Assembly: GCA_963971425.1 (NCBI GenBank)
Contig: OZ020515.1
Location: 37,462,371-37,526,370, forward strand
Direction of reading: 5' to 3'
Origin: Bryoerythrophyllum caledonicum
Taxonomy: Eukaryota > Streptophyta > Bryopsida > Pottiales > Pottiaceae
Length of the DNA stretch: 64,000 nt
Position numbers and translations under genes: made by a program. Positions 169 through 27,600 of this stretch are shown piece after piece (the stretch's first letter is position 1; each line of letters opens with the position of its first letter). Below the pieces are notes generated by a model, which made no database searches, had not been told where the DNA came from, and saw only the letters and a list, made by a program, of their open reading frames with translations.

Positions 169-811
169 CCCTAAAGGACCAAGTGTCATAAAATGGCAAT
201 TTGAAGATTCAATTAGGTTCATATGGTGTAAATTTCTAACATTCTTCTTTGAAATTTTTATTGTAGATACACATTACTAAAACCTCAGTGGGAAAACAAT
301 TTTTCCTAAATCCAACAATTATTGAAATTTTTTCAAGGTTTTAAATTTCAAACAAAGAGAGCAAGCACATTGGGCACCTCCTAAAACTTTTGCTAGGAAT
401 CTCTACTGAATGTGAGATTTTCAATACTAGCAATAATATTATTTCCTATCATACTGTCAAAAAAAATTCTTGTCTTTAGTGAAAAATAGCATATAAACCC
501 AAGTCAAACATTTTCAAACATTGTTACACATTGTCGGGCAAGGTACCAAAAATACTTCTTCCTTTCCACATAAAACTTAAAGGTCTTTATATTTTTTAGT
601 TTTTATTTTTTCCACAACAATATGTGGTGTAAACCTTCTTACTCACCATTTGGATTATCAATCTAAAACATATTAAGCTCACAAAAAATTAAAACGTGAA
701 TTGACAATTTTTGAACCTCCACTCCTTGCACATTTGTTTTGAATATGCTACATCCCTTCTCTATCTATAAAAATTGGTGAATAACAAACTAAAATCATGC
801 TTAATACTATG
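169..811. repeat. Left part of a TTAA-type MITE split by the 12.7-kb element
   Basis: The sequence starts TCCCTAAAGGACC after TCAA (165-168, a decayed TTAA) and is the reverse complement of the right two-thirds of the intact copy at 4797-5738. Shared blocks include the GGTACC-containing segment near 541 and the TATTAAGCTCAC region near 670. It breaks off at 811, exactly where the large element begins, and resumes at 13536. The two parts together come to about 940 bp, against 942 bp for the intact sibling. TTAA duplications with CCCTAAAGG-like ends resemble piggyBac-type non-autonomous elements; that assignment is inferred from ends alone. Confidence 0.8.
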
Positions 812-842
812 AACACGCAATTAAGCAATTATGCACTTGGCC
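812..842 (+). repeat. Left terminal inverted repeat of the 12.7-kb element
   Basis: A 31-bp terminus beginning AACACGCAATTAAGC and ending CACTTGGCC. It differs from the right terminus by one base (G instead of A near the inner end). A second motif, GTGCACTTGG, follows a few bases inside, and a similar AAGTGCACT lies just inside the right end, suggesting subterminal protein-binding sites. Confidence 0.88.
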
Positions 843-1382
843 ATATAAAAGTGCACTTGGGTACAACGGCGGCCATTGCGAACAAAAGCGGCAAAATTGC
901 AAAAAAAAAAAAAAAATCAATGAAAAAAAATGATTTCCAAAGAAAAAAAATTGAGCTTCTACAACAATATTACGTACAATCATGGTTGTTAATATTGGAA
1001 GCGGTTTTTTGGCATTTTCAACTAATTTTTGGTGGCCCCTCGTTAATACTAGATAAATCTGTATTTAATATAGTTTCACAATATTTCAAAGATAGATTTG
1101 AAGGATTGTAGTGTACAAACCGGCGTAATCACAGAAAAACATAGTTATGCAAAGGTTGGCAGTTGATTAAAAGATATTCTACGTAGTATATAATGCATAC
1201 AATGGTGGAAATTAAATATAGATTCTTCTACATCTGGACTTAGCACCAATAGTAAAATTACCTTTACTCTATAGGATTAATGACATAACGTCTTACATCA
1301 CCCTTAGAATATACTACTTTTACACATACACTATATATCAATTACCATACACAACTAGTATACTCTCATAAAGGCACACTAT

Positions 1383-3887
1383 CTACTCCACAGAATTTAG
1401 GGCTGCTTGCAAACGGTCGTCATCGATAGCTTCGGTTTGCATTGCAATATATTGTAGTATGTGAGCCTTTGCCGATTGAAGAATGCGAATCCTGCTTTCA
1501 ACTTGCACTCCAAATACATTGCGCTTTCTCCACCCGCTCGTCCCAGACATGGTTCTTTCCAGTGTGTCTACCCATGAAAAAATGCATGAATCTTTCTCTA
1601 CCCAACTATGGCTCTCCCCAGATGGCTCCCAGAATGAATCCATGCAATTTGCATACCGTTGTGCAGAAGACCCATGTCCATCAGCAACCCCCCTTTGGAT
1701 GATGGGCCAATACCAACAAACCTTAATCTTAAGTCTCCATCGGTTTTTTCCTTCCTCAATCACTTTCCCCACATAGAATGGTACACTGCCTTCTATCTCT
1801 GCTCGATCAACACTCAAGGCTACAAACTGTCCACAACGGATATCAGATTGTGGATTAAATGGTGGAAATGGGTCGTGATTACCTTCATACATTGTTCCTT
1901 CTTGGGCACGTTCATCAACATAGTTGCGCTCTGTGTGTTGTGCCCTACGCACTGCTTGATTAGAGGGTCTTCCTCTACGAGGACCAAAGTATCCTCGAGC
2001 CTCGGCATTTGGAAGCATCGCCACTACCTGCTCTACAACATCTATCTCGCGATTTTCTTCACTTGCACCATCCATTACATCCAAAGATGCGCTCCCTGTA
2101 GGTCCGGTGTTGGAGAAATCTGAAGGCCAAAACGGTGAGGAACGATGCTCATTGCTACGGTCTTTGTGTGGAAATTGAGCTAAATAGAGTTTCAATCTTT
2201 CAGCCTCTACTTTTGCCTCACGATTCTTGTCCTCATGCTGCAACCTTTGGATGCACCTTTCTTTACATACAATGAAGTCATCCAACGCCTTCAACTCCCG
2301 TTCGTCCGCTCCAAATACTTCCGCAAACGCTGGTCGTTCATCCCTACTTGGCAACGACCTCAAAATTTTTGTCCCTGCCTCCGGTCCCCATGGATCCTTG
2401 CAATAATGCTTGTGTTGTACTCGAACCTCACGAGTCCCTTCTCGATTGTCCACATAGAATCGCATGTGGTGCGGAAATGTTATGCCCACCAATGAATCCT
2501 GACCTGTCAGTAAGTGAGGAGTTATGAACAATTTCCAATCCCATACATTCTCTAGCAGCCGGGCGCTAACAAATGCCTCCGTAGGGGATGTTCCTCGTTC
2601 TATAAGACTCATCATTTCCTTCAACGAATCCACGTCCGACCTCTTCAACGTATTTGATATACAACTGAAGCGTTGATCAATATCTTCGTGTGTATGGCCC
2701 ACTATAAGAAAAAATAGTTCCACTTCCTGAAAAAACCCCAATCCCACCAATGTAGCACATAGAGCAAACATATAAATGTTTTTGTTCTCACGCGTGCAGT
2801 TATCGGCCTGAATCCGCAATGTTGGTGGCAAAAAGCCCCTCCTCCGCAGCACATCTCCTATCACGTACAACAATGTACTCACGACTTGGTTGCTATCGTG
2901 TTTGTGGTGAGCCCCGAACCACACATCGCAATATAAACCAATCCCATGTACAAGAGCACCACACAGATGGGTCTTCACAAACCGGTGTTCAATATTCTTC
3001 ACAGTCTGACGCATCCTCGGTACCATGGTCGTGTTTTGGTCCATGCCATCCACTATGATGCACATGTACAACTCAGGGCTAATATAACACGACCTCTTGA
3101 ATATCCAATAATGCCTACGTTCTTCCATCTGGTTGCGTAGATGCAACATAAACAACTTTTTTATCTTTATCCTTGCATCCGCATTGGTGGTTCCCTCCAT
3201 GGCACATTTATACTCCCAACAATGATAACACTTTGAGAATCTCGAGAATGGAGGTACCTGAACGTGGGGATACTTGATGCGCCACATCCTCCGGAACGAA
3301 CTCATAGAAATGGTTTCTCTATTACAAATTCTCTTGACCTCCTCGTTCACGTAATTGAATACATCAAATTTGGCTGTATTCATAGGAAGGAGAATGAGAG
3401 GCACCACTTCGTTGTCACTCTTACGGCGAATACAACGATGAGGTTGAGGACAACCAGCTTCATCGACAAACGATTTAAAGCAAGCCTCTGCTGCAGACAT
3501 TCTAGTACTCTCTCTTATCGGATCTGAAAGGGTATTGCCGTGAATCGATGTCACTCTTCCATATATTAGACAATCCTTCTTCAATTGCTTAAAACGCCTC
3601 TGTGAATATCCAACCCCAAGAGCGTAGCAAGCATTGGAAACTTCTTTCCCATCTAACTTTGTTACAAACTTGTCTTGACGAGTTCCTTCCGTCCTTGTGT
3701 AAAAAGAAACCAGCATCTGTCTCATCCACATACTTCGAACTGAAAACTCATTACCCCATGCAATATATCGCATGTCCAATAGATACCTTGCTGGAACGTC
3801 TCTCAAACAATTGCGTTTGTATCCTCCTTGTGCCATTGCAATTTGTACGCTTCTAAGCGATACCTTAGATGGTGCAGCTTCTGTCAA
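1383..3887 (-). CDS. DUF7869-family protein, candidate DDE-like transposase
   Basis: About 834 codons without a stop. From established knowledge, the central block (residues ~270-420) matches DUF7869, a family scattered through plants, algae, oomycetes and invertebrates and often repeat-associated. Visible motifs are IIVDGMDQ (Asp280), a KHDSN box near 330, QADNCTRENKN (Asp362) and VGHTHEDIDQ (His398-Asp402). Their order and spacing resemble an RNase-H-fold recombinase, which is an inference. A CX2CX4C cluster (Cys220, 223, 228) may bind zinc. The C-terminal ~250 residues are lower-complexity with basic patches. The frame at 3887 opens with TTG; the first ATG is at 3836. Upstream, the same frame continues past a single TAA into 3921-4574, so the native protein is probably ~1,060 residues. 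It is the main candidate for moving the surrounding element. Confidence 0.8.
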   Translation of the reverse strand: MTEAAPSKVSLRSVQIAMAQGGYKRNCLRDVPARYLLDMRYIAWGNEFSVRSMWMRQMLVSFYTRTEGTRQDKFVTKLDGKEVSNACYALGVGYSQRRFKQLKKDCLIYGRVTSIHGNTLSDPIRESTRMSAAEACFKSFVDEAGCPQPHRCIRRKSDNEVVPLILLPMNTAKFDVFNYVNEEVKRICNRETISMSSFRRMWRIKYPHVQVPPFSRFSKCYHCWEYKCAMEGTTNADARIKIKKLFMLHLRNQMEERRHYWIFKRSCYISPELYMCIIVDGMDQNTTMVPRMRQTVKNIEHRFVKTHLCGALVHGIGLYCDVWFGAHHKHDSNQVVSTLLYVIGDVLRRRGFLPPTLRIQADNCTRENKNIYMFALCATLVGLGFFQEVELFFLIVGHTHEDIDQRFSCISNTLKRSDVDSLKEMMSLIERGTSPTEAFVSARLLENVWDWKLFITPHLLTGQDSLVGITFPHHMRFYVDNREGTREVRVQHKHYCKDPWGPEAGTKILRSLPSRDERPAFAEVFGADERELKALDDFIVCKERCIQRLQHEDKNREAKVEAERLKLYLAQFPHKDRSNEHRSSPFWPSDFSNTGPTGSASLDVMDGASEENREIDVVEQVVAMLPNAEARGYFGPRRGRPSNQAVRRAQHTERNYVDERAQEGTMYEGNHDPFPPFNPQSDIRCGQFVALSVDRAEIEGSVPFYVGKVIEEGKNRWRLKIKVCWYWPIIQRGVADGHGSSAQRYANCMDSFWEPSGESHSWVEKDSCIFSWVDTLERTMSGTSGWRKRNVFGVQVESRIRILQSAKAHILQYIAMQTEAIDDDRLQAALNSVE

Positions 3888-3920
3888 TGATGGCTCCCTT
3901 AAATCTCTCCTTCTCCTATT

Positions 3921-4574
3921 TTACATAGAATATCGACGACGTGCTGGTCTAACATAAGCAAATCCATCTACATGGGGCAAATCTCGGATATTTGAGGGAG
4001 TAGATTGGGAAAACGGCGAATTTTCATCTATGGCGTTTGAAGCATGACTACTGCGTCGAGACCTCTGGGTGGATCCTGGTGTGTTGATGAACTCAGGAAA
4101 ATCAAATTCTGGGGCCATCACTTGTGTAGGCGCTATCTGTGATCCAATGTCACCATGGACACCTGTGATATCAGGTTCTACAGCCACTACACGTAGCAAA
4201 GATTGATGCCAACGAATGATCAAGCCCACACACATGCTAAGGCGTTCTCCTACAATCTCTCCGGTCCAATACAATGCATCATCTACCCTAGTGATACGCA
4301 CCGCCACCTCGAATGGGAACAACTTTGACCCATTCAATTCCATGCCACTTTTGAATGCATGCTCCCTCGTTGCTAAGCCCACCACATCTCCTCTTTCTGA
4401 AAGAAATTCTACTGTTTTTTCCAATTCTGATGTTGTGATCCCAACAGATCTTTGTTGAATTTGCCTTGCACGTACTGCTCGTACTAATCGGGCCCCCACA
4501 GAGCTATTAGAAGGCATATTGATCCTTTCGATGTGTGGCCGCATCAAAGGAGTTTCAATCGTGCGGCTCTCCAT
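3921..4574 (-). CDS. N-terminal part of the DUF7869 gene or short companion ORF
   Basis: 217 codons in the same frame as the DUF7869 block, separated from it by one TAA (3921-3923) and 11 sense codons. No domain was recognised. The first ~130 residues look folded, with many Arg residues and a hydrophobic stretch around 110-125; the last ~60 are Ser/Pro/Arg-rich. The ATG at 4574 lies four bases after a good 3' splice site (polypyrimidine then GAACAG), so the message probably has an upstream exon. Either this is a separate small protein read from a two-cistron message, or it is the true N-terminus and the TAA is an inactivating mutation. The shared frame and the open codons on both sides favour the second reading. 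Confidence 0.6.
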   Translation of the reverse strand: MESRTIETPLMRPHIERINMPSNSSVGARLVRAVRARQIQQRSVGITTSELEKTVEFLSERGDVVGLATREHAFKSGMELNGSKLFPFEVAVRITRVDDALYWTGEIVGERLSMCVGLIIRWHQSLLRVVAVEPDITGVHGDIGSQIAPTQVMAPEFDFPEFINTPGSTQRSRRSSHASNAIDENSPFSQSTPSNIRDLPHVDGFAYVRPARRRYSM

Positions 4575-4796
4575 TATAACTGTTCAAAAAATAGGAACAT
4601 TATGGCTGCACATTAGTCAAAATACATGTATTAATTGTTAACCTTTAAAGCACCATTCATCTGATAAAAGATATGTTTCTAAACACATATTTACAGTTCA
4701 AAATATGATGATGATATTGGACCTTTTGATAAAACAACTTTGAAATAAAAAAATTAAGAATTTGTAGAGCATGAACTCCTTGCACGGAGTCTTTAA

Positions 4797-5738
4797 CCCT
4801 GAAGATACAATGACAGTTTTACACCAAAAACACTTCAAAATTGTTGGATTCCATCGCAATGAACAAAAAAGGAAACAAAAACTTTTATCTCTACTTTTGA
4901 CCGTAGGATCTCAATTAAGACTTATTCAATAACATACTCAAAAACTTTCATAAACTTTGACCGCACGGATTGAAAAATTATAGTGTTTGAAGTCAAGCAA
5001 ATGGTTCATTTTGTTCCCTGCATGGAGTGGATCAGCAGACTTTGACTTTACTTGGTGTCAATATTTTGCACTATACAAGGTCTAAATCCATAACCATCTT
5101 GTTAAGCATGGTGTTAGTTCCTTGTACACCAATTTTCAGAGGTAGAGAATGGGTGTAGCATATTCAAAACAACTATGCAAGGAGTGGAAGTTTGGAAGTT
5201 GTTAATTCACAGTGTAATTTTTTGTGAACTTAATATGTTTTAGATTGATAATCAAAATCGTCAATAAGAACATTTACACCACATAATGTTGTGGAAAAAT
5301 AAAAAGTGAAATATAAAAAGATATCACGGTTTTAATTGGAAAACAAGAAGTTTTTTTGGTACCTTGCTCAACACCGAGTGAGAATGTGTGAAATGTTTGA
5401 CATGGGTTGGTATGCTATTTTTCGCTAAAAACAAGAACTTATTTTGACAACATGAAGGGAAATTGTATTACTTGCAAGTACTGAAAATCTCACATTCAAC
5501 AAAGTGTCCTAGCAAAAGTTTTTGGACGTGCTCGACTTGTCTGCTCTCCCCATTTTAAATTCAAAACCCTAAATTGTTTTGATCAAATGTCCAATTTAGG
5601 AAAAAATGATTTTCCCACTAAAGTCTTCGTAATGCCTTTCTATAGAAAATATTTCAAAGAGAAATGGTGGAAATTGACACCATAGGAACTTGACCGAACT
5701 TTCAAAAAGCCCATTTTGGACACTTGATCCTTTAGGGG
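4797..5738. repeat. Intact TTAA-flanked MITE (942 bp)
   Basis: The sequence runs from CCCTGAAGATAC to CCTTTAGGGG and is bounded by perfect TTAA on both sides (4793-4796 and 5739-5742). It shares internal modules with copies at 169-811, 7800-8915, 13536-13831 and 25684-26573, including a segment around a CCGCACGGATTGAAA core. No coding capacity is visible. It lies in what is probably the 5' intron of the DUF7869 gene, so it entered the large element after that element formed or travelled with it. Confidence 0.82.
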
Positions 5739-6057
5739 TTAAATATGCTACACCTCTTTTGCATCCCTGAACATTGGTGTAAATGGAACTTATATCATTT
5801 CTGACATGATAACGAATCTAGATCATGTGTGATGCGATTTTTAGAATCCAAGTGAATTGAAACAAAGGGAATCCACTGAACTTAGGGAAGAAAATGAACC
5901 ATGTTGTCTACTTGCTATTACCGATACCATTGGAACTTATTACAATCGCTAAAAAAAAAAAGGTTTGTACATCCACATAAAGGTTATTCTACAAACAATA
6001 TAGTATAGAAGATCAATCAACATTCAATCTTAAACTTGTATAAAAATAAAAGTTTAC

Positions 6058-6169
6058 CTCAAGATACGTTGCAGGTGTTAGCGGTATACGCACTGATGCT
6101 TGATGGTGTTCGACATTTAATCATCATTCCGTTGTTGTTGAACATGTTTTTTAACCCTTCCCACTTTAC
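6058..6169 (-). other. Possible upstream exon of the DUF7869 gene
   Basis: On the minus strand a TGCAG acceptor precedes 6169 and a GAG/GTAAAC donor follows 6058, giving a 112-nt exon candidate. One frame is open for most of its length but ends in TGA just before the donor, so it could be untranslated leader. Splicing to the acceptor next to 4574 would remove the MITE at 4797-5738 as intron. This is a prediction from splice-site appearance only. Confidence 0.3.
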
Positions 6170-7143
6170 CTGCACCACATGCACAAAATTTATATGGTAA
6201 ACTATGCGATAAAACCTCCTAAGTATCATCGTATTACATATACCCCAAAATTTTAATATAATATGTAAAAAGTTTAAACATAAAGAGGAACAAAGCAAAA
6301 GGACCAGAGTTCAGAAGTCAAACTTTGACTCGTAAACTTGAGGCACAAGGTTCCAACATAGATATAAGGTTTCTATGCAAATTTGGAGGTCATTTCTCTT
6401 CCCAGTTTCTAAGGTGAGCTCTCTTGCATTCGAAACCTTAAGGCCATGTGCATTTTTACTCCATTCACTAATTTCTGTCAACTTTGTGTATTGTGTAGAT
6501 TGAAGGAAATTTGCACATCGAGGAGACTTTAGCAAATTTGGTAAGCTTCTAACTTTGTTTCAATTCTGCATAGAGGGAACTCAGGGATAGGTACATGATG
6601 ATTGAAGTTCAGTCAGAGTTACTATAGAGTTAGGTGAATACCAATATCAGAATACACAAATGAGGACACCAACTTCAGTATGTACACAATTGCAAAGTTG
6701 AATGAATACACATATAGCAGTCAACAACTAGTAAGTTCAACCTTCGTTCAACTGAAATAATTACACCAACACCACACAAATTGAAGTCAATGTGAAGTTA
6801 GTAATATGGCACTAAATCCTCAGTACGGCACATCACCGCACAACCTGAAACCCTAGCCGCCACACCTAGGCACCCAAACCCTAGCCGCCTCACCCAAAAC
6901 CTAGCTGCCGCAACTAAACCCTAGCCGCCACAACTAAACGTGAGCCGCCACAGCCAAAGGTCCCATGGAGTTCGCGCGACACCTCATGGAATAACCGTGG
7001 ACTGGAGGTGTGCGTGCGCACACCCCCAACTGCTGCTGCTCCTGCACCCATCCAAAAAACGTCCCGCCGCTGCGCCGCGATTCAAATCCATCCTCGGGGT
7101 GCGGCGCAAGCTTGGCTGGCCAAACGCGGCGCGGCGCGGGCAC

Positions 7144-7343
7144 NNNNNNNNNNNNNNNNNNNNNNNNNNNNNNNNNNNNNNNNNNNNNNNNNNNNNNNNN
7201 NNNNNNNNNNNNNNNNNNNNNNNNNNNNNNNNNNNNNNNNNNNNNNNNNNNNNNNNNNNNNNNNNNNNNNNNNNNNNNNNNNNNNNNNNNNNNNNNNNNN
7301 NNNNNNNNNNNNNNNNNNNNNNNNNNNNNNNNNNNNNNNNNNN
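7144..7343. other. Assembly gap of 200 N
   Basis: Exactly 200 unknown bases, probably a placeholder of arbitrary length. The flanks are CpG-rich and palindromic on the left and CT-repeat-like on the right, which fits failure to assemble through difficult sequence. Reading frames drawn across it are not meaningful. Confidence 0.98.
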
Positions 7344-7572
7344 CTCAATCACTCACAATCTCTCTCACCTCTCAATCACTCAATCTCTCACCACCTTCCA
7401 AACTTCTCTCCTTCTCTCTCCCAAACCCTAGTCGCCCAACTACTTCTCTCCGTCACAACTCCCCTCCATTCCTCTCCCTCACATCTCTACTCTCGTCACC
7501 CTCACAAGCCCTTCTCTCAAACCCTCCTCCAAACCCTCTCTAACACTCACAGCCTCCCTCAAACTACTGCCC

Positions 7573-7594
7573 GGGGTGTGCGCGCGCACACCCC
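7573..7594. repeat. 22-bp perfect palindrome with alternating CG core
   Basis: GGGGTGTGCGCGCGCACACC plus CC reads identically on both strands. A related hairpin (GGTGTGCG, TG, CGCACACC) lies on the other side of the gap near 7007-7024. The alternating purine-pyrimidine core could adopt Z-form or extrude as a cruciform. Confidence 0.75.
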
Positions 7595-7799
7595 CCTCGT
7601 AGGACAACCCAACCTTGCAAAGGATTGATATCCTCCATTGCAAAGGATTGATACTCACATTTCCAAAACCCTAATATCAAACCCTAATTGATACCCGCAT
7701 TAGATACCTCGGTTGATAACTTGGAAATGGTACCTATGAACTCATACCCTGGTGGTGATACCCTCGCTATTGATACCCAATGTACCTTGGTCCATAAAT

Positions 7800-8915
7800 G
7801 ATGTTGAGAACATGTCAACCAAAAATCGTTTAAAATGCTTGTTTTTAGTGCATTTAGCAAGGAAGACAAAATATAGTTTTTTTGGTAGTTTTAACCGTAG
7901 GATCTTAATCCTTACCTATTAAATAATATGCTCTAAAAATTTCATAAATTTTCACCGCACGGATTGAAAGATTATAATGTTTGAAGTAGTGAAAAGGCTC
8001 ATTTTCTTCACTGCGTTTTCTGGATCAGCAGACTTTGACTTCAATTGGTGTCACATTTTTGCACTATAAGTGGTCTCAAATTAATTACCATAATGTTAAG
8101 CATGATGTTACTTTGCTGTATTCCAATTTTTAGAGTTAGAAAAGGGGTGTAGCATATTCAAAAAAATTGTGCAATGAGTTGGGGTTCAAAAATTCTCAAT
8201 TCACGTTATGTTTTTTTGTGAACTTGATATCGTTTGAAATGAGAATCCAAATGGTCAATACGAAGGTTTACATCACACAATGCCGTAGGAAAAATCAAAA
8301 GTGAATCATACAAAGATCTTAAAGTTTTATGTGGAAAGGTATAAGTTTTTTGGTACTCTCCTAGAAAATGTGTGACAATGATTGAAAATAATTGACTTGG
8401 ACTAATATGCTATTTCACCAAAGAACTAACAACATGCTTAACACAATGGTATTGGATTTAGATCTTGTGTAGTTTATAAGTTTTTAGAGGTAGACAAGGG
8501 GTGTAGCATAAAAAAATAAAATTGTGCAATGAGTGGAGGTTCAAAAATTCTCAATTCACGTTATGGTTTTTTGTGAACTTGATATCGTTTAAAATGAGAA
8601 TCCAAATGGTCAATGAGAAGTCTTACATCGCATAATGTTGTAGGCAAAATCAAAAGTGAATCATACGAAGTTCTCAAAGTTTTTTGTGGAAAGGTAGAAG
8701 TTTTCTGGTACTCTCCCCGAAAATGTGTGACAATGATTGAAAATAATTGACTTGGACTAATATGCTATTTCACCAAAGAAGTAACAACATGCTTAACACG
8801 ATGGTATTGGATTTAGATCTTGTGTAGTGCAAAAGTTTTTAGAGGTAGACAAAGGGTGTTGCATGTTCAAAAATATTGTGCAATGAGTGGTGGTTCAAAA
8901 ATTCTTATTCCATAC
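7800..8915. repeat. MITE-derived segment with ~355-bp tandem duplication
   Basis: The first part matches the inner portion of the TTAA MITE family (CCGCACGGATTGAAA module near 7955). From 8127 a ~355-bp unit is repeated: starts at 8127, 8481 and 8836, each with TTTTTAGAG followed by a GGTGTAGCAT-like motif (the third reads GGTGTTGCAT); the third copy is partial. It ends just before the acceptor and start codon of the plus-strand module, so it probably lies in that gene's 5' intron. The left terminus was not found. Confidence 0.7.
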
Positions 8916-8967
8916 TAATAGTGACTATCGTTTTGTAATGATATACAGGTTTTTTGAGTGTTGCGTT

Positions 8968-9900
8968 ATGGCACCACCAAATATTGATAGAATCTGGGAG
9001 AGCCACGGTTGGTGGATTGCAGAAGTGGATGGGTCGAGCACCTTCTTATGGGTGACGGATTATCCCTTTGAGTTGGGGAAGCGTAAATCGGCATTGGGAA
9101 AGAGTTTTGGCAAAATCCAAGCTATCACTCTTCGACGTGATGATATGGTATACGTTACATGCGCAGTGGGTCCAGGTCAATCGGAGGTGAAGACTTCTCT
9201 TTCGAAGAAGTTGTTTTTGGCACCTGTCCCTTTGAATCTTCTTCAAAATCCAGGTCAGGTGAAATTCCTCAAATCCTTGCAGACATTTTGGTTGAACATC
9301 TCTCTTGCGGTACGTACTGTTAGACACAACAACGTCTTAGCCTGTTTAGCGTTATCACCGGAGATGGTGCTGAAGGCTAAGAAGATTATGGAGGAACATA
9401 TTAGATATGAAGCATTTCGGGAGAGAGACCCATCACATGCGACAACTCAAGCCCCACCAGCGGAACCAGAAGAAACAGAAGTTTATCGAATTCTTGCTGA
9501 GCCGTTGCAACTGGATTGGCGACCACTGGAGGGGGGGAGAGGAAGTGGAGGCCAACATCCCACCACATCTTCTGAGGTACAGACATTACCGAATCCTCCA
9601 TTAACAAGTAGACGTCCTACGAAGAGGCCACGGCGTGTTGACAGTGATGTAGCTTCTGGTTCAAGAGAAGGCCCATCAAGTTTGGATCCAAGTGGGAGGA
9701 GGTTGATTGGGAGAAGTGCAAGATCGGGTGGCAGGATTCCTAGGTCGGGGCTCAGGACGTCTGATGGTCATCGTACAGCCCCTACATCTACACCGGGAGA
9801 TTTAGCTGATTTGTCAGCCATGGCGCCAGAGGAAGAAGATTTTCACAACCTTCCAGATAGTATACCAGAGGATTTTGAAGACAATGCGGAGATACCTTAG
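8968..9900 (+). CDS. Unknown protein, first segment of plus-strand cargo
   Basis: About 310 codons from the ATG at 8968, chosen because a TATACAG acceptor lies 20 bases upstream and the preceding bases belong to the MITE repeat. Residues 1-150 look like a compact domain beginning with a WESHGWWIAEVDG-type segment. From ~165 the protein is Pro/Ser/Arg/Glu-rich, with a basic cluster (RRPTKRPRR) that looks like a nuclear localisation signal and an acidic end. No family was recognised. It stops at a single TAG, and the same frame continues at 9901 as the next segment. A nuclear DNA-associated role is only an inference from the basic motif and the element context. Confidence 0.6.
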   Translation: MAPPNIDRIWESHGWWIAEVDGSSTFLWVTDYPFELGKRKSALGKSFGKIQAITLRRDDMVYVTCAVGPGQSEVKTSLSKKLFLAPVPLNLLQNPGQVKFLKSLQTFWLNISLAVRTVRHNNVLACLALSPEMVLKAKKIMEEHIRYEAFRERDPSHATTQAPPAEPEETEVYRILAEPLQLDWRPLEGGRGSGGQHPTTSSEVQTLPNPPLTSRRPTKRPRRVDSDVASGSREGPSSLDPSGRRLIGRSARSGGRIPRSGLRTSDGHRTAPTSTPGDLADLSAMAPEEEDFHNLPDSIPEDFEDNAEIP

Positions 9901-9915
9901 GATCTTCCAACTCCA

Positions 9916-11556
9916 ATGAATTTAAAAGCACCAGTGCCTACAACAGAGGAGATTGCGAAAAGATCAGTGTGGGGGAATTTTGTGTTTAAGGCACACATAG
10001 ACCGCATTGTCTCTGTGGAGAATCCGGAAACCAACCACCGGGTTTTATCACAGAAGAGGGTCATAGAAGTATTCAACCGCTTACGAGACCCAGAATCCGC
10101 GACTCGGGTGAGTAGATTGGTACTTCGACCGATCAGATACATCGTGCATACTACCACCGATGATGGTGTCATTGAGAAGGAAGAGCTGCCATTTCCGTTG
10201 GTAGGTACCGCACGAGAGTTTGAACGCATGTTCATTGCACACGGGAGTGCTTCTGCAGAGGGTGCTATGGGATCCCAGTATTCTTGGCTTCAAGATCATA
10301 TCATTTGGGAACCGGTGGATGGGCAACACATAGTAGCAGCTTCTAAGTTTGCACAGCAGCAGTGGAGAGATGGTACTATGCCTTTAAACGAGTATCTGGA
10401 CACATTTGAGCGGCGGGAGGCCTCTTTTGTGGTGTGTGATGATCGTCGCTTTTACATTGAGAAGTCTGCGCGGATCAACGTGGCGGAGTTCCAGAGACAT
10501 TCATATTCTACCATGGAGGAGGATTTGAGGAAGATCCGTCAAATTTGGGATCTATATGGGAGGCCTGATAGCACACTACGTGCGGACGATGCACGCAGGG
10601 CTGTTGCTTTGGTGAGTGCGGCAAGTGCAGTGCACAAGTTGCCCAAGGGGGATGGAGTTGTCACGGTGAAGAGGTTGGCCAAAAACATGGAGGATTTGAC
10701 CAATCATGCATGGAATCCGAGCAATGACTGCTTCGAAGCTATCATTCAAGTATGCAAGGACTACGAAGACGGCATTCTCTTTTACAGCAAGGAGGAAGAG
10801 GACAAGTGGAAGGACATGGCAAGGAAGAAAGAGTTGAATCCAAATGTGGACGTACGACCAACAAGAAAGGAGATGACGCAGAATTGGTTGAGGCCGTTAG
10901 GTAGGGTTCCGAATCCATATTATCTTCGATTGGCAAAGTCTGCTGCAGCGAAGCCGGTGGGGGAGGATGGAGTAAGACCACGTCAAGCATATTACTTTGA
11001 CGGTGTAAAAGACAAGAATCCACATCCTCGTACGATTGCCGGTGTGGTTGACCGATATCAGAGACGAGAAGCTGTAATGAATTCCATCCGTTGGTTGATG
11101 GTGGAGAACAAGGAAAGTACACGTGATTCCATGGAGGATTTTTTTCGTATCCGTGTAGGAAAGTATTTTCCAAGGAGTAACACACAACTTGATACGTTTG
11201 GGAAGCTTTTGAATGCTGCCACGAAAAAAGCTTGGACTGCTCCTGTGCGGGGGAAGGTGTCTAAACTGGAAGACATAGGCTACCTCATCCCCCCTTCCAT
11301 CAGGTTTCATTATGGTGGCATTGCAGCAGGGGGGCGTGGATACGTTGGAATGTCCGTGGATGTGGGAGGACTGGCTACTGCTAATTGGGAATGGCAGATG
11401 GAAGTCAAGAGGCCAAGCCAGAGCGACACAGAGAATCTTCTTCCGGTTCGGTGTAGAAGAGGGTTATTCCGCACCGACTACATAGAGTTGGGGAAACCAT
11501 GTTTGTGGGTGATTGATTGTCGACGTGGCGGTGGGAGGCATGGAGATGGTCATTAG
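9916..11556 (+). CDS. Unknown protein, middle segment of plus-strand cargo
   Basis: 546 codons in the same frame as the segment before it (one TAG between) and the one after it (two TAGs between). The sequence looks like a folded protein, rich in Trp, Arg and Asp. An EPVDGQHIVAA stretch near residue 134 weakly recalls the DGQHR-type motif of ParB-like nucleases, but the surrounding pattern is not enough to assign that fold. The C-terminus (WVIDCRRGGGRHGD) runs straight through the stop into equally protein-like sequence. The ATG at 9916 may be only an internal Met. No family is recognised; it is probably an accessory protein of the transposon. Confidence 0.6.
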   Translation: MNLKAPVPTTEEIAKRSVWGNFVFKAHIDRIVSVENPETNHRVLSQKRVIEVFNRLRDPESATRVSRLVLRPIRYIVHTTTDDGVIEKEELPFPLVGTAREFERMFIAHGSASAEGAMGSQYSWLQDHIIWEPVDGQHIVAASKFAQQQWRDGTMPLNEYLDTFERREASFVVCDDRRFYIEKSARINVAEFQRHSYSTMEEDLRKIRQIWDLYGRPDSTLRADDARRAVALVSAASAVHKLPKGDGVVTVKRLAKNMEDLTNHAWNPSNDCFEAIIQVCKDYEDGILFYSKEEEDKWKDMARKKELNPNVDVRPTRKEMTQNWLRPLGRVPNPYYLRLAKSAAAKPVGEDGVRPRQAYYFDGVKDKNPHPRTIAGVVDRYQRREAVMNSIRWLMVENKESTRDSMEDFFRIRVGKYFPRSNTQLDTFGKLLNAATKKAWTAPVRGKVSKLEDIGYLIPPSIRFHYGGIAAGGRGYVGMSVDVGGLATANWEWQMEVKRPSQSDTENLLPVRCRRGLFRTDYIELGKPCLWVIDCRRGGGRHGDGH

Positions 11557-11601
11557 GGAGACGCCTAGTTATCCGCAGTTTTTGCACAGCTGGCATTATG
11601 G

Positions 11602-12933
11602 ATGGCAAATATTGAACGATGGAACGTCATCTTCTTGTTACCAGCGGCCGTGTATGCCAACGAAGAGTTTTTCACGAAGGTGAAGCTTCCAGAGGGATGT
11701 ACTATGCGACGTGGATGTTGGGCATTTGATCCAAACTTGGTTAATCCCTATGCTCTCGATTTTACAGAGAATGGGCGTCTGGAGCAAGTAGTACAACCGA
11801 TTGGCGATGTTGTGATTTGTATGCAGCACCCTGTGGGTACATCTCCTGGCCCGAACTATGTTTCTGGAGACGTTCCACTTCCTCTTGTTTTCTTGGATCA
11901 CTGGAGTGAGGCACGCCAACCCTCTGAAGTTGATTCACTTGAGAGATCTCCATCAGAGCTGGCAAGACTAGTGGGCTCATACTTGCCCCGTGGTTGGGGT
12001 TTAGTGGCGTGTAACATATCAACGGCCATTCCCACGATCCTTGAAGGAGATTTCCAGGGATCTGAGGTTTTCATCATTGACGATTGTACATACAGAGTTT
12101 CATTTCTGTACAATGAGTTGCTCGACAATTTCCAAGGACAACTGTTGGTCATGACTGGTGGAACAAGTATTGGTTGCAACATCGTAACTGAGACCGAAGA
12201 GGCGGTTGGTGGAGTGAGGAATGAAGACGACAATGAGGATGGAGGTGGTTTAAATGAGAGATTGCCACGTTCAGGTACCACTGAAGATTTTTCATCACGC
12301 AGTGGTTCAGACGCCGATGAAGATGGAGTGAACCAGTCTCCTTCAAGAGACAGGATTCCATCAACGCAACGGGCGGTGGGAGATACTTCAGGGCAGACAT
12401 TTGCAACACCTACAGAGAGGATGCAAGATACCGGTGTAGTAGATGTTAGATTGGCGGAAAGGGCAGGAGGGGGGCGTACATTTGATGGTTCTCGGCTGGA
12501 GATGGAGGAAGAAGGATTAGATTCATGTGAATTTTTTTCGGTGCAGAGGAGGATTCCACAACCTTTGATGCCTTCTCAATCACAGCCTGTTTCGGAGACA
12601 CAAGAGACATTTAGAGGTACTCAGAGTGATATCGGACCAGGTTTGCCTTCCGTTCCAAGATCTAGCGTATCCGAGGACATCATTGCATTTCAGGGGGCCT
12701 TCTCATCAGAGCGAGAGATGTCCTTCAATCCTGAAGATGGCTTTTTCAACAATGATGATCGCGTAAGGCATACACGGGAGGGTGTACCTGGCAATTATCG
12801 ATTTGTTGAGTGTGCATCCATTGGCATCGAAGATGTGGGAGATCGTCCAGTGCAGGATCATGAACTGTCCGCTATGGTAGGTAGCGCCATTGGACACGTG
12901 GAGGGAGTCGTTCCGCAAGAAGATGAGCTATAA
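11602..12933 (+). CDS. Unknown protein, last segment of plus-strand cargo
   Basis: 443 codons, again in frame with the two preceding segments. The open frame begins before this ATG, just after the second TAG near 11568. The first ~190 residues look folded, with hydrophobic strands including LLVMTGGTSIGC near residue 180. The remaining ~250 are acidic and Ser/Gly-rich, like a disordered tail. No family was recognised. With the two upstream segments it makes one ~1,320-codon frame cut by three TAG codons. It is followed by ~570 bp of AT-rich sequence up to the right terminal repeat, which probably holds the 3' UTR. Confidence 0.6.
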   Translation: MANIERWNVIFLLPAAVYANEEFFTKVKLPEGCTMRRGCWAFDPNLVNPYALDFTENGRLEQVVQPIGDVVICMQHPVGTSPGPNYVSGDVPLPLVFLDHWSEARQPSEVDSLERSPSELARLVGSYLPRGWGLVACNISTAIPTILEGDFQGSEVFIIDDCTYRVSFLYNELLDNFQGQLLVMTGGTSIGCNIVTETEEAVGGVRNEDDNEDGGGLNERLPRSGTTEDFSSRSGSDADEDGVNQSPSRDRIPSTQRAVGDTSGQTFATPTERMQDTGVVDVRLAERAGGGRTFDGSRLEMEEEGLDSCEFFSVQRRIPQPLMPSQSQPVSETQETFRGTQSDIGPGLPSVPRSSVSEDIIAFQGAFSSEREMSFNPEDGFFNNDDRVRHTREGVPGNYRFVECASIGIEDVGDRPVQDHELSAMVGSAIGHVEGVVPQEDEL

Positions 12934-13500
12934 GCCGTGGAGCTATATACTATAGTAGAGCATGCACGCAGTTTAGGTGGCAAGTGCGTTAGTATAATGT
13001 AGTTTGAGATGTGTCTATCGTTCGATGGGTGGTATATATTTATATATTGGGTGGTCTATATGATATGTTTGATTTTAGAATTCCTCGGCAATAGTGTGGA
13101 ATTGCTTGATTATGTATGTTTTTGCATTATAAAATACAGTGAGGTACTTTACATTGTCTTAGGAAATTGCATATATATTTTCATATCTCTTACACATTGT
13201 ATTTGTAGTGCACTACTCTAAAATCCTATAATAACTCATAACAAATTTATAATCTCTTTGGGCACATGATTATGATTTTGTAGCAGGATTTGTAAACTAG
13301 ATTAGAAATCATATATTTTCTAAAAAAAGGTAGCAAATGTAAAAAATATATTACTGATATGAACATGAAGATGCCAAGGTATGACACAACAAACACCAAA
13401 AAAATTTGACAAAAAACATACTAAAATTTTGCCAAATTTTGATTTAAAAAAAAGTTATGAGCAAATAACTTGCGGCTTTCTACCAGCAAGCAGTGCACTT

Positions 13501-13531
13501 GGCTAAGTGCATAATTGCTTAATTGCGTGTT
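13501..13531 (-). repeat. Right terminal inverted repeat of the 12.7-kb element
   Basis: Read on the minus strand from 13531 it starts AACACGCAATTAAGC and matches the left terminus at 30 of 31 positions. TATG at 13532-13535 follows directly and duplicates 808-811. Confidence 0.88.
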
Positions 13532-13535
13532 TATG

Positions 13536-19457: not shown

Positions 19458-22248
19458 CAGTACAATAGGGTGACATTCAAATTGGCCGTTTAGTAGTTCC
19501 AGGGATAGTGTCCTACACTGCTGCCAACTTTGACACCCTCCCCAAAGCTAAGAAATTGTTATTTTACCATGAAAATTTGGGGACAGCATCATCTTTATGT
19601 TGAAAACATGCATACCAAATTTCAAGTCCAGGAGACTTATACAAAAGAACTTATGCAAGATCTACCAACATGGGATAGCTGTGAGAAAAGTGTCACAGCT
19701 GCCAACTTTGACACCCTCCCAAGAATTGAGGAAAATTTTTTTGCCCATGAAATTTTTGGAGCAAAAACATTTTTATGTTTTTTGCATGTGTGGAAAATTT
19801 CAAGTCCAAAAGACCCATACAAAAAATAATATTCCAAATCTACCAACATGTGTAGTTTTGAGAAACAAAGGGGAAAACCATTTTACTACTTCCAACTTTG
19901 ACGCCCTCCTTAGGATTGAGTTTTTGTTGATACATAGTGAAATTTTTGGCACAAGATCATCTCTACGCTAGTAACATGTGGGATAAATTTCAAAGCCAAA
20001 AGACATACATAAAAAAAGTTATTCCATATCTATCAACATGTGTAACTATGATAAACAATTTGAAGGTCATATTGAAAATGTCAAAATATCTTTGACACCT
20101 CATGCTTTTTCATTGAACTCAATCATGTGAGTAAGCCACCAAACATAAATGCTTCTCAAAAAGATCAATAACATCTAAATGAAGAAGCGAAGAGGTGTTC
20201 CATGCAGAAGAATCCACTTGGCCATAAAGTGTGTATTAGACACATGACAAATTTTTGCTTCTAAATATCTATTGAACACTATGTAAAGGGAATGGTGTAT
20301 GTGATTTGTGATAGACTGAATGTTGAGACAATCCTCAAAATAGAGAGTGTTGTATTGTGGGATGCATGAGTGTTGATTCACATTGGGCATACATGATGAG
20401 TGATTAAGAGCAAAACAATTTTTCATGTATGCATATGGGCTTGTATTTTGGCGACCCTTCTCTCTCATCTCTGCTCCGGTGCCTTGGCTCCCTTCTCTCC
20501 CCCTTGCTCTGCTCCAGCCCTGTTCTCCTTCCTCTGCCAATTGTCACGTGTCAATCCTGCAACCCCCTTTGCTCTGCTCTAGCCCCTTGGCCCCCTTCTC
20601 TCCCCCTTGCTCTGCTCTAACCCCTACTCTACTGCTATAGCTAGCATCACGCACTCTATAAGTTTATGATGGCAATTTCAGATGAAATTCGTGCTCGCAT
20701 CATAGGTTTGAGTGAGGGAGGATTTACAGGAGTTCAAATTGCAGCTACTATTGGAGTTCCTATTAGAACAGTTACAACGTTAGTAAAAACATTTAGAGAA
20801 GATGGAACCTACAAGCGCAAACCTTGCGGTGGAAGTCACGCTAAAAAGCTTAGTCATAGAGATGTTCGTAGTATTGTGCATTACTCAAAAATTCATCGTT
20901 GTTCTTCACTCTCAGAGATTACCAGTGCATGTCCTACTCAAGTGTGTAGACGTACAATTCAAAGGGTCTTACATAAAAATGGCATTTTTAGTCGAATTGC
21001 AGTCAAAAAACCTTTTTTAACACCTCATCACATGTCTCAACGATTAGCTTTTGCTCAGAAGTACCGAGGATGGAGTGCAAAAGATTGGGAGCGTGTTGTT
21101 TGGACAGATGAATCTACTTTTGAAATTGGAAAAAATTCTCGGCAAATTCATGTTTGGAGAAGTGCATACGAGCGTTATTCGTCAAGTTGTCTAGCTCCTA
21201 CTTTTAAAAGTGGAAGGACTTCTTTAATGATTTGGGGCGCATTTGCCGGAGGACAAAAGTCAGAACTTGTCTTTATGCCTAAAGGTCAACGTTCTGCTAA
21301 GGATTTTATAGAAGTGGTTTACGATGCCAAATTGGTTTATTTCATGGGTCAAATTCCACAAGGAGTGCTTATGGAAGATGGGGCACCCGTCCATAGGAGC
21401 AAAATATGTGAAGAATGGAGACAAAGCCACCTTCTCGAAAAGCTCAACTGGCCTGCAAACTCTCCCGATCTCAATCCAATCGAGAACGATTGGAGGATGT
21501 TAAAAGATGTTGTGCAACATGGCAAACAATGCCCTAGAAGCTTAGATGTGTTGAAGGTAGTTCTTGAAAGAGAGTGGAAGTTAGTCAATGGTACAAAGCT
21601 CCTTCAACTATGTCATTCTATGCCCTCTAGGTTACTAGCAGTGATTGACGCTAATGGAGGACATACACGTTGGTAGATATGGAATAATTTTTTTGTGTAC
21701 ATCTTTTGGCTTTGAAATTTATCCCACATGTTACCAGCGTAGAGATGATCTTGTGCCAAAAATTTCACTATGTATCAACAAAAACTCAATCCTAAGGAGG
21801 GCGTCAAAGTTGGAAGGAGTAAAATGGTTTTCCCCTTGGTTTCTCAAAACTACACATGTTGGTAGATTTGGAATATTATTTTTTGTATGGGTCTTTTGGA
21901 CTTGAAATTTTCCACACATGCAAAAAACATAAAAATGTTTTTGCTCCAAAAATTTCATGGGCAAAAAAATTTTCCTCAATTCTTGGGAGGGTGTCAAAGT
22001 TGGCAGCTGTGACACTTTTCTCACAGCTATCCCATGTTGGTAGATCTTGCATAAGTTCTTTTGTATAAGTCTCCTGGACTTGAAATTTGGTATGCATGTT
22101 TTCAACATAAAGATGATGCTGTCCCCAAATTTTCATGGTAAAATAACAATTTCTTAGCTTTGGGGAGGGTGTCAAAGTTGGCAGCAGTGTAGGACACTAT
22201 CCCTGGAACTACTAAACGGCCAATTTGAATGTCACCCTATTGTACAAG
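19458..22248 (+). mobile_element. Tc1-like DNA transposon with ~585-bp inverted repeats
   Basis: The ends are CAGTACAATAGGG on the left and, on the minus strand, CTTGTACAATAGGG on the right. TA dinucleotides lie on both sides (19456-19457 and 22249-22250). The left repeat (19458-20042) and right repeat (21667-22248) are nearly identical inversions of each other and carry subterminal copies of CAACTTTGACACCCTCC. The single gene between them is an open DD34E transposase. The repeats are much longer than the short ends of classical Tc1. With an uninterrupted gene and closely matched repeats, this copy could be recent or active. Confidence 0.92.
20666..21676 (+). CDS. Tc1-like DD34E transposase, apparently intact
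   Basis: 336 codons from the ATG at 20666, close to the family's usual ~340. The N-terminus has two helix-turn-helix-like regions (residues ~5-45 and ~62-108, with the linker GTYKRKPCGGSH between them), expected to bind the inverted repeats. The catalytic triad is Asp148 (WTDEST), Asp238 (MEDGAPVH) and Glu273 (NSPDLNPIEN), with 34 residues between the last two; this is the DD34E signature of Tc1-type cut-and-paste transposases acting at TA sites. The stop falls within the inner edge of the right inverted repeat. A CT-rich leader-like tract (20460-20640) precedes the start. Plant mariner elements usually carry DD39D, so a DD34E protein here is unusual. Confidence 0.93.
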   Translation: MMAISDEIRARIIGLSEGGFTGVQIAATIGVPIRTVTTLVKTFREDGTYKRKPCGGSHAKKLSHRDVRSIVHYSKIHRCSSLSEITSACPTQVCRRTIQRVLHKNGIFSRIAVKKPFLTPHHMSQRLAFAQKYRGWSAKDWERVVWTDESTFEIGKNSRQIHVWRSAYERYSSSCLAPTFKSGRTSLMIWGAFAGGQKSELVFMPKGQRSAKDFIEVVYDAKLVYFMGQIPQGVLMEDGAPVHRSKICEEWRQSHLLEKLNWPANSPDLNPIENDWRMLKDVVQHGKQCPRSLDVLKVVLEREWKLVNGTKLLQLCHSMPSRLLAVIDANGGHTRW

Positions 22249-24690: not shown

Positions 24691-27600
24691 ATGAGCCTTT
24701 TCACGAAACCAGCTTTAGGGACACTAATCTTTCTTATCACCTGCGTAGTTACATGTTTTGAGAGCCAGTTCGCCTCAGGGAGGCTCCTTCATAGCTTGGT
24801 TGTCGGTGATGCCCTGTCTACGAGTACTAACGATGTGGTGCTGTCACCAAACGGGAGACTCGCTGTGGGATTCTTTCCTGATGCACAGAACGGATTCTAC
24901 TTCGGATGCTGGTTTACTGGTGAGTCATGAAATCTGATAAATTGAGTACACAATGGTATTTTTAGCCTGGTCTAATAACCCTTGATAGGGTTTGAGCGTT
25001 TGATGTGACTGCTAATTTGACCTCTGCACCTGGATCATTTGCAGATCAAGTTTCTTACCATTATAATAATATTTCGAAGGTAGTCTGGATCGCCAGCCGA
25101 AGACCTGGTTCAAGTATGTCTCGTGCAGAGTGGGACGACGGAAAGTTATTCACAGTTTACTCCGGGGTTGCTACAACTTGGAGGGTTCAGAAATCTTCGA
25201 CCAAGGCGGAATTGTTGAACAGCGGGAATTTTGTCTTCTATGACGAGAGAGCGAATCCCACTCTCCCGGTTTTTGAGAGCTTCAGCATGCCCTTGGACAC
25301 ACTTCTTCCAGGACAGGTCTTTCGACCAAGTAAGCAATCTTTTACTCTGAAACCTCCTACCAATTACCTGAATTAGAAAGCATGATTTATGTCTTCTACC
25401 TGCGCCATTACTTGACAATAGAAGTAAGGCTGCATTGCTAAGATAAAAATCAGAGCGTGCATCTGGGCGTAAGAAGATTATATTGCCTACTGCAACTCAG
25501 ACTAATAACAAAACCTTGGAGCAATCCTGGAATTAGAACAAAATCCAAGTTGGACTAATTGAGATAGCTTGTCAAATTCACCAACATGTTACTAGAATTA
25601 CTTTGATGCTTTGTGGTAAAAGTTCATTAGGTAAGTTGTGGTTGTCAAAGTGATATGATAAATTGTTAGAATGAAATGATTAACCCCTAAGGTTCCTTCA
25701 CTTTTTCACGACCAAAAATTTCTCATTCTAGTGTAAAGAGTAGTAAAGGAAAAAAAACGTCTTGTTTTAACTTTGAACTGTACTAGGATCTTCATCTAGA
25801 CCAACAAAACCACATTCCTACAAATTTCTTTCTCTTTCATGTGTTAAGAGTATCACGAGACTTTGACTTCACTTAGTATCAAGATTAAGCATTACAAAAG
25901 GTATAAATTTTATATCATCATGTTTTACATGATCTTAGGTGCTTTGTACAATGTAGACCAAATGATGATGAGATAAAAGACGGGTGTAGCATATTCAAGG
26001 AGACTGTGTTTTACATGATCTTAGTTGCTTGAATACCAATGACGATGAGGTGTAACATATTCATAGATTTTGTGCAAGGAGTAGTATCAAAAAATAGCCA
26101 CTGCACATTCTAGTTTTATGTGAACTGTAGTTGTTAAAGAATGAGAACCCAAACTAACCAAAAAAAAGCTTTATACAACATCATGAAGTAGTAAGAATCT
26201 CTAATTTTGATGAGGAAAAGAAGGTTTTTGATATCTTGCCTAATAATGTGTGAAAATGTTTCACTTGCGATAAAATGGAATTTTGACACAAACGAGAAGA
26301 TTTTGTTTTGACAACCTCAAAGAAAACAATGAGATTCTTTTGTAAAAAGAAAATAACCAATGTTCATAGAAGGATGTAGCAAAACATTTGGAGTAGATTT
26401 AAGTCCAACAAATAGCACTTGGAATAGCATATCTTCTAATTTAAAGGTCCGACGTGAAAAATTTATATCAAGAAGCTACTACTATGCTACATCTTCATAA
26501 GAAATTTCAAAAGTGACATCACAGGAACCCGCCCAAAATGGCAAAGATTTCCATAGGGAAGAATGAATAGGGGTTGATTGAAAAGCTACATTTCGATAAT
26601 ATTTCTGTTGATTATGATCTTGTTCGTGTGGATTTCAGATCAAGTGCTGACCTCCTTCTCAACCGATCCGTCAAGCCCTGGTGTGTACTCCCTGAAATAC
26701 CACCGGGACGGCAACCTTGGGCTGTGGGCGCAGAACATTACCAATTACTGGATAAGCCAGACACTACACGTCCAGAACCAGGAGCCGGAAACGAAGAATT
26801 ACGCACTGCTAGACGACCGTGGCACTTTCACCATCATCAACATCCGAGGCCCGTCTGGCGTGTACAACAAATCATTGACGACGTCCGACGCAATAGGTGC
26901 GAGCTTCCAGCCGATGCGACGGTTAACACTCGATTCAAATGGCAGTCTGAATCTCTACGTGCAAAACGGGGTAACGTGGACTCAAGTCTGGGCTGCGTTG
27001 ATCTGGCCAGGGTGCATACCAGACCGAAACCTCTCCACTACAGATTGCAGACAATCGGTTGCACCTGGACGTCGGCTGGAGACAGCGCCATCGAGTTCAC
27101 GTTCCAACTTTGTGCGCATTTTGATCATCGTGAGCTCTGCGTCCATTATCGGCACCATCTTCGTTCTAGCCCTCCTGTTCTTCTGCTGGTGGCTGCGTCA
27201 ACGACGAAAAGCGCGTCGCAAGCTGCGGTCAGAACTCCCCAGCACAGTGGCCCTGAACCGCATCGACAGCTTGGCCTCCCTTAAGCCCAGTCGACACACC
27301 TCAGGCTTCATCGACACCATATCCGAAGAGCCGTTCTGTGACGAGTACTCAGGCGAGAAGCCACGGAGCTTCACGTACGAGGAGATTGAGACCGCCACTC
27401 GGAAGTTCCGGAAGATCCTGGGGTGCGGCTCGTTCGGAAAGGTGTACAAGGGCAAGCTCCCGGACAATCGGTTAATCGCTGTAAAGAAGCTGGAGAAGTC
27501 TCAGCAGGGGCAGGAACAGTTCCAAACCGAGGTGTTGACAGTGGGCAGCGTGTTCCACCCGAACCTGGTGCGTCTCTACGGCTTCTGCTCAGATGAGCAA

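Follow-up and report, generated by a model that had tools for sequence, protein, structure and literature searches.

Does the DUF7869 domain, to which Pfam assigns no function, belong to the recombinase of a DNA transposon, and what is the large gene that accompanies it? The question is raised by a stretch of 64,000 nucleotides from the moss Bryoerythrophyllum caledonicum (assembly GCA_963971425.1, contig OZ020515.1, positions 37,462,371 to 37,526,370; hereinafter the window), positions 812-13531 of which are occupied by an element with two large divergent genes, one encoding a DUF7869 protein and the other a protein that is denoted here the partner. As detailed below, this element is confirmed as a real DNA transposon with many copies in the genome. 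Most likely, it is a large two-gene DNA transposon in which DUF7869 is the DDD-type recombinase and the divergently encoded partner an accessory protein.

The two ends of the element, 812-842 and 13501-13531, are inverted repeats of each other that agree at 30 of 31 bases, with TATG directly outside both, so that the 31-bp inverted ends and the TATG duplication claimed in an earlier note on this DNA are borne out. Apart from these two ends, the window has no match to the first 20 terminal bases at up to 3 mismatches. Across the 437 Mb genome searched, the first 27 bases (up to 3 mismatches) have 1,021 forward and 1,048 reverse matches (2,069 altogether), compared with 0 and 0 for the reversed pattern used as the control. 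The best 40 of 1,177 candidates that were scored for the left 289 bases are 97-100% identical to the window copy, and the best 40 of 852 for the right 300 bases are 98-100% identical.

Among 100 termini listed, all of them on C1 and C2, 24 pairs face each other at a distance of 2-15 kb, and in the 20 pairs that were read the flanking 4-bp duplication is exact in 16 and one base off in 4, as compared to a shared tetranucleotide in 4 of the 380 mismatched pairings of ends from different pairs. All 12 pairs 11.3-14.4 kb apart have exact duplications, as do 4 of the 8 shorter ones. In a set of 20 duplications (the 16 exact ones and those of the window, C3, C7 and C1 elements), the two middle positions are A or T in 16 and 18 cases, respectively, and TTAA, the Kolobok and piggyBac target, does not occur among the 16 exact duplications. 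Other copies with inverted pairs of this terminus, which the earlier note had proposed looking for, are thus present in the genome. When the flanks of the window element are joined at a single TATG, the alignment spans the site in 20 repeat copies among the loci examined, and 17 of these are ungapped within 20 bases of that point, with variation in the four target bases; accordingly, the target region is present once in those 17 copies, and the insertion point does lie inside a repeat, the putative MITE of the earlier note. Some of the 20 repeat copies are located inside copies of the element. The same repeat also occurs within the element (window positions 4791-5689 and 7818-8424), with matching copies in the middle of the element at C2:3492886-3505923, so the element carries copies of its own flanking repeat.

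The window copy is probably dead, given that its two genes contain four in-frame stops between them (3921-3923 in the DUF7869 frame; 9898-9900, 11554-11556 and 11566-11568 in the partner frame). Both frames are open, stop to stop, in the copy at C2:3492886-3505923 (1066 amino acids (aa) for DUF7869 and 1341 aa for the partner), which spans 13,038 bp and is 91.7-95.3% identical to the window copy over the three largest aligned blocks, and six partner copies have stop-free frames of 1363 aa that are 98-99% identical to the C7 partner. The open copies of both genes suggest recent activity and make the roles of both proteins testable. The ratio of nonsynonymous to synonymous substitution rates (dN/dS) is below 1 for both genes, namely, 0.147-0.349 in the 15 of 28 transposase pairs with unsaturated dS, and 0.256 for the full-length partner in the comparison of the window copy with the C2 copy.

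The association of DUF7869 with such ends extends to diverged families. All 150 scored matches in this genome, the best of 3,611 first-look candidates, are above the Pfam cut-off, and the domain is present in none of the 14 control genomes; long alignments with the C2 transposase range from 100% (partial) to about 35% identity. Five diverged elements (C7:19369404, C3:18240523, C1:3212543, C14:4753001 and C2:27561320) were read together with their surroundings. The C7 copy (transposase identity 77%) has a window-type terminus, spans 12,264 bp between ATGA duplications and encodes an open partner of 1349 aa with 54% identity. The C1 copy (36%) spans 10,998 bp between AATA duplications, within flanks that seem to be locally repeated, and has the ends AACACCGGTT(T/C)CGTTAAAA and a partner homologue (E-value 6e-21) in the same layout as in the window element. 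The C3 copy (about 46%), which measures 17.3 kb, has AAAT duplications and the ends AACATGGAATTCGC..., with inverted repeats of about 470 bp that begin AACATGGAATTCGCTAAATATGCACTTGG. The terminus of this C3 family (up to 2 mismatches) has 66 and 72 genomic matches on the two strands, compared with 0 and 0 in the control, and of the 23 facing pairs less than 18 kb apart among the zero-mismatch places listed, 10 were read, with exact 4-bp duplications in 7, as compared to 1 of 90 mismatched pairings; the remaining three match at 3, 1 and 0 of the 4 bases. The flanks of the pair with no matching base, C3:28589990-28600810 (L131/L132), are mutual reverse complements over 16 bases, which represents either an inverted duplication or an assembly artefact. 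Taken together, the comparison of the families indicates that ends starting with AACA and 4-bp duplications accompany DUF7869 transposases at 36-100% identity.

The DUF7869 protein itself matches the Pfam family PF25273 over part of its length, with a score of 168.3 bits against a cut-off of 26. Eleven aligned copies (39-97% identity to the window copy) all have D291 (in VDGMDQ), D373 (in QADNC.REN), D413 and D415 (both in VGHTHEDIDQRFS), whereas E412 varies. The first two are the residues that the earlier note had singled out as conserved Asp280 and Asp362, if the numbering of the note starts 11 residues later than the present one; D291 is located upstream of the Pfam match, which covers residues 313-495. 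Because D294, D342, E378, E448 and E457 are invariant as well, the catalytic triad is a choice, and either D413 or D415 would be the third Asp. A crude, averaged propensity plot places one strand ahead of D291 and further strands behind it, one immediately ahead of D373 and one ahead of the GHT box, with D413/D415 covered by a helix, but it also gives strand at about 345-356, where a helix is expected. This order of elements would correspond to a DDD enzyme of the RNase-H type in which the second and third Asp are about 40 residues apart, which suggests that DUF7869 may be catalytic and may adopt the RNase H fold.

Under the mechanism that appears most compatible with these features, the DUF7869 protein would recognise the AACA... 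ends and excise the element, presumably by cut-and-paste rather than by another route, and would join it to a target, AT-rich in the two middle positions, with a 4-bp stagger that gap repair would convert into the 4-bp duplication. The partner would then be a co-evolving accessory protein, most likely a DNA-binding or transpososome factor.

The partner, which according to the earlier note would be a co-transposed protein of some 1,320 codons with no recognised domain, is borne out as a second conserved protein: the frame has 1,348 codons, no family match and conserved relatives. In a search with the C7 partner as the query, 17 of the 34 loci scored (the best of 2,424 candidates) have a scored DUF7869 match within 20 kb, and all 17 are divergent, 16 of them at a distance of 5.5-6.4 kb and one at 10.5 kb. 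When the first piece of the C1 partner was the query, 85 rows were obtained, the far copies being about 30-41% identical; the 67 rows that reach the conserved core were counted, and the 18 outside it were excluded (two of the latter, C2:37929305 and C2:37929556, adjoin DUF7869 on the same strand). A scored DUF7869 match lies within 20 kb in 34 of the 67, where about 0.9 such neighbours are expected by chance, and 33 of the 34 are divergent. The two counts share loci and, because only the best 150 of the DUF7869 candidates were scored, the shares near DUF7869 are lower bounds. The partner is thus found beside DUF7869 in distant families. Near C9:22920916, a relative of the C3 copy, the partner core is found 14.2 kb off in divergent orientation, and in the stretch of C14:4753001 a partner piece (E-value 4e-58) lies on the opposite side of the DUF7869 gene.

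The core alignment includes 8 copies, of which the 7 others are 26-66% identical to the window copy, and has the invariant pattern TN.R.L ... LRP ... I...P.DGQH...A...A ... F....A ... Y...S...N ... K.R..W...G.P. Searches of the core against Pfam, NCBIfam and PDB gave nothing better than chance, and the full frame yielded one sub-threshold chance match in Pfam (E-value 1). Among the titles listed in literature searches, none concerns such a partner, and of 36 papers that contain a letter string of the sequence motif, the 20 listed are unrelated by title. A YhdJ-type DNA methyltransferase, which is plausible by eye for the C-terminal part, was rejected, as hhalign assigned a probability of at most 0.1% in a low-power comparison of 8 methyltransferases (7 from phages and 1 from E. 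coli) with 4 partner sequences. No relatives of either protein were confirmed in viral contigs or in bacterial and archaeal genomes (34 and 42 pattern matches, respectively, for the partner core, 43 and 44 for the transposase). For ISAzo13 (PF07592), considered as a possible bacterial link, there is no match in the present genome, but none in any control genome either. In-frame stops in the partner are mostly TAG (45 TAG, 23 TGA and 6 TAA over 25 rows), an excess that could result from C-to-T decay of methylated CAG/CTG sites.

Several observations weigh against the assignment of these roles to the two proteins. For the 11 DUF7869 members, Pfam (E-value up to 10, within the HMMER filters) returned DUF7869 and single chance hits with no transposase family, and NCBIfam likewise no transposase family, only one unrelated model in 2 of the 11 (best E-value 0.013). 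Among the Pfam matches obtained under these settings, the integrase-type (rve) domain of Ginger, IS481EU and IS3EU is also missing. An hmmsearch against PDB gave no meaningful match for DUF7869 (best E-value 0.069). Single-sequence AlphaFold models are unusable, with a predicted local distance difference test (pLDDT) score of 37.6 for window residues 221-507, with almost no strand, and of 33.7 for the window partner core. For two of the diverged elements, C14:4753001 (transposase identity 40%) and C2:27561320 (36%), the inverted-repeat scan found no ends. On the side of the partner, dN/dS over the last 400 codons is 0.315-0.849 in 28 pairs and highest between close copies, one core row near DUF7869 (C14:4779456) is not divergent, 33 of the 67 core rows have no scored DUF7869 match within 20 kb, and no partner was seen in the stretches read of three of the five diverged elements (C3:18240523, C2:27561320 and C14:4753001).

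Among the alternatives, the one that retains most credit, even if we consider it somewhat less than even, is that DUF7869 elements make up a superfamily separate from Sola (the DDD superfamily discussed below), characterised by AACA ends, an accessory gene and 4-bp targets rich in A and T. In its favour, DUF7869 has no profile match to a transposase model; furthermore, the term DUF7869 was not found in the literature searched, and the available passages of the Sola descriptions mention no partner of this kind. However, those Sola traits that were open to a test are present here, Sola1 is listed for a moss (PMC9033089), and Pfam names may lag behind transposon libraries, in which case a missing name would prove little. 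A more specific form, which we regard as unlikely, is a separate, ancient superfamily of two proteins, a DDD recombinase and a partner of about 1,340 residues, the core of which (TN.R.L ... LRP ... EPVDGQH ... N) would be a eukaryotic ParB-like DNA-binding or clamp domain that pairs the ends of very long elements or resists host silencing. EPVDGQH is at most a motif lead towards ParB/DGQHR proteins, as the core has no match to a ParB/sulfiredoxin or DGQHR family in Pfam, NCBIfam or PDB.

The absence of the partner from the stretches read of three of the five diverged elements implies that it may be dispensable and, along with the core rows that lack a scored DUF7869 neighbour, would be compatible with a captured passenger gene that has no part in transposition. 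We nevertheless hold this to be improbable, given that the divergent position of the partner is shared by families whose transposases range from 36 to 100% identity and that its full-length dN/dS is low in the one pair compared. Reversed roles, with the partner as the recombinase and DUF7869 as the accessory protein, are conceivable in so far as both proteins are large and conserved and have putative functions, but appear highly improbable: the spaced invariant Asp residues are in DUF7869, the C3 copy combines DUF7869 and such ends with no partner found, and no DDE-like pattern is apparent by eye in the partner alignments. Finally, spread by segmental duplication instead of transposition, to which a probably dead window copy would lend itself, is hardly credible in view of the duplications that directly abut the ends in 16 of 20 cases, in differing flanks, and of the open copies elsewhere. 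Thus, the two-gene transposon with a DUF7869 recombinase and an accessory partner is the interpretation that is retained here; its features in the window are given in Table 1.

Table 1. Positions of the element and its parts in the window
Feature	Position	Strand	Remarks
Left target site duplication, TATG	808..811		directly outside the left end
Left terminal inverted repeat, 31 bp	812..842	+	begins AACACGCAATTAAGC; 30/31 identical to the right end
DUF7869 gene, probable DDD transposase	1386..4583	-	1,066 codons stop to stop; stop 3921-3923 included
Pfam DUF7869 match, PF25273	2436..2984	-	E-value 1.9e-49; residues 313-495 in the frame starting at 3920
D413 to D415 codons, VGHTHEDIDQRFS box	2676..2684	-	both invariant 11/11; D413 or D415 is the proposed third catalytic Asp (putative role)
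D373 codon (QADNC.REN)	2802..2804	-	invariant 11/11; proposed second catalytic Asp (putative role)
D291 codon (VDGMDQ)	3048..3050	-	invariant 11/11; proposed first catalytic Asp (putative role)
Middle region between the divergent genes, 4.3 kb	4584..8886		repeat copies and N run (assembly gap) at 7144-7343
Partner gene	8887..12933	+	one frame, 1,348 codons before the final stop; open (1341 aa) in C2:3492886-3505923
Partner conserved core, EPVDGQH motif	9919..10620	+	VDGQH at 10315-10329; 8-copy alignment
Right terminal inverted repeat, 31 bp	13501..13531	-	matches the left end at 30/31
Right target site duplication, TATG	13532..13535		directly outside the right end

In their middle regions, the window copy and the C2 copy (L095, about 6495-6695) each have a run of 200 N bases, which is absent from the C7 copy; these runs are perhaps a repeat that fails to assemble. 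Elsewhere in the window, on the forward strand, there are an open 343-aa frame of the Tc1/mariner type (20645-21673; DDE_3, E-value 6e-15; HTH_Tnp_Tc3_2, E-value 1e-14), which perhaps encodes an intact transposase, a protein kinase frame (26578-28209; E-value 7e-47) and a DUF674 frame (33809-34483; E-value 5e-13). An APO RNA-binding domain (E-value 6e-14) is present near one copy of the element and, together with the DUF674 frame, suggests a land-plant host.

These results provide a Pfam domain of no assigned function with defined ends and a likely function, such that genome annotations could mark the abundant DUF7869 genes as transposons. In addition, a large orphan protein that stands beside the transposase in distant families joins the known accessory proteins of DNA transposons.

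The superfamily beside which the element is best placed is Sola, which reportedly goes back to Bao et al. in 2009. According to the passages available, Sola elements have a DDD transposase, 4-bp target site duplications and inverted ends of 11-1124 bp, are mostly 2-9 kb in size, with some over 15 kb, and are found in the moss Physcomitrella patens but seem to be uncommon in flowering plants (PMC10741241). The present elements agree in the duplications (16 of 20 exact and 4 of 20 one base off, and 7 of 10 exact in the C3 family), in the terminal inverted repeats (31, about 470 and about 19 bp in the different families) and in the size of the four delimited elements (11.0-17.3 kb). The invariant D291, D373, D413 and D415 and the approximate RNase-H-like order would be compatible with a DDD transposase. 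Because the traits that were tested fit Sola by description, the element is called Sola-like. With respect to the second gene, capture of Fanzor genes is described for Sola2 elements, which have AT-rich 4-bp duplications (PMC3627910), and no gene of the partner kind appears in the Sola passages available; on account of the partner, the element would be a Sola-like kind that is new in its second gene.

Two other groups resemble the element in part. KolobokP, a composite-like DDD/E transposon with duplications of 3-4 or 4-5 bp depending on the family, carries a second enzyme gene, an endonuclease, that can be likened to the partner gene, but the long terminal direct repeats and the His-Me finger endonuclease given for it in the available part of the source are not seen here (PMC9587614). 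Two-gene DNA transposons also include En/Spm, MuDR and Harbinger, and the nuclease of Academ is XPG. AcademX shares duplications of 3-4 bp with the present element, whereas Academ elements, in the passages at hand, carry a nuclease or a helicase (PMC10045372), for which there is no Pfam hit in either gene here. Hence the novelty claimed in the earlier note has to be narrowed, as DDD transposons with 4-bp duplications are known as Sola and two-gene transposons have precedents; what stands is the second conserved protein, by which the present element would be set apart within the Sola-like transposons.

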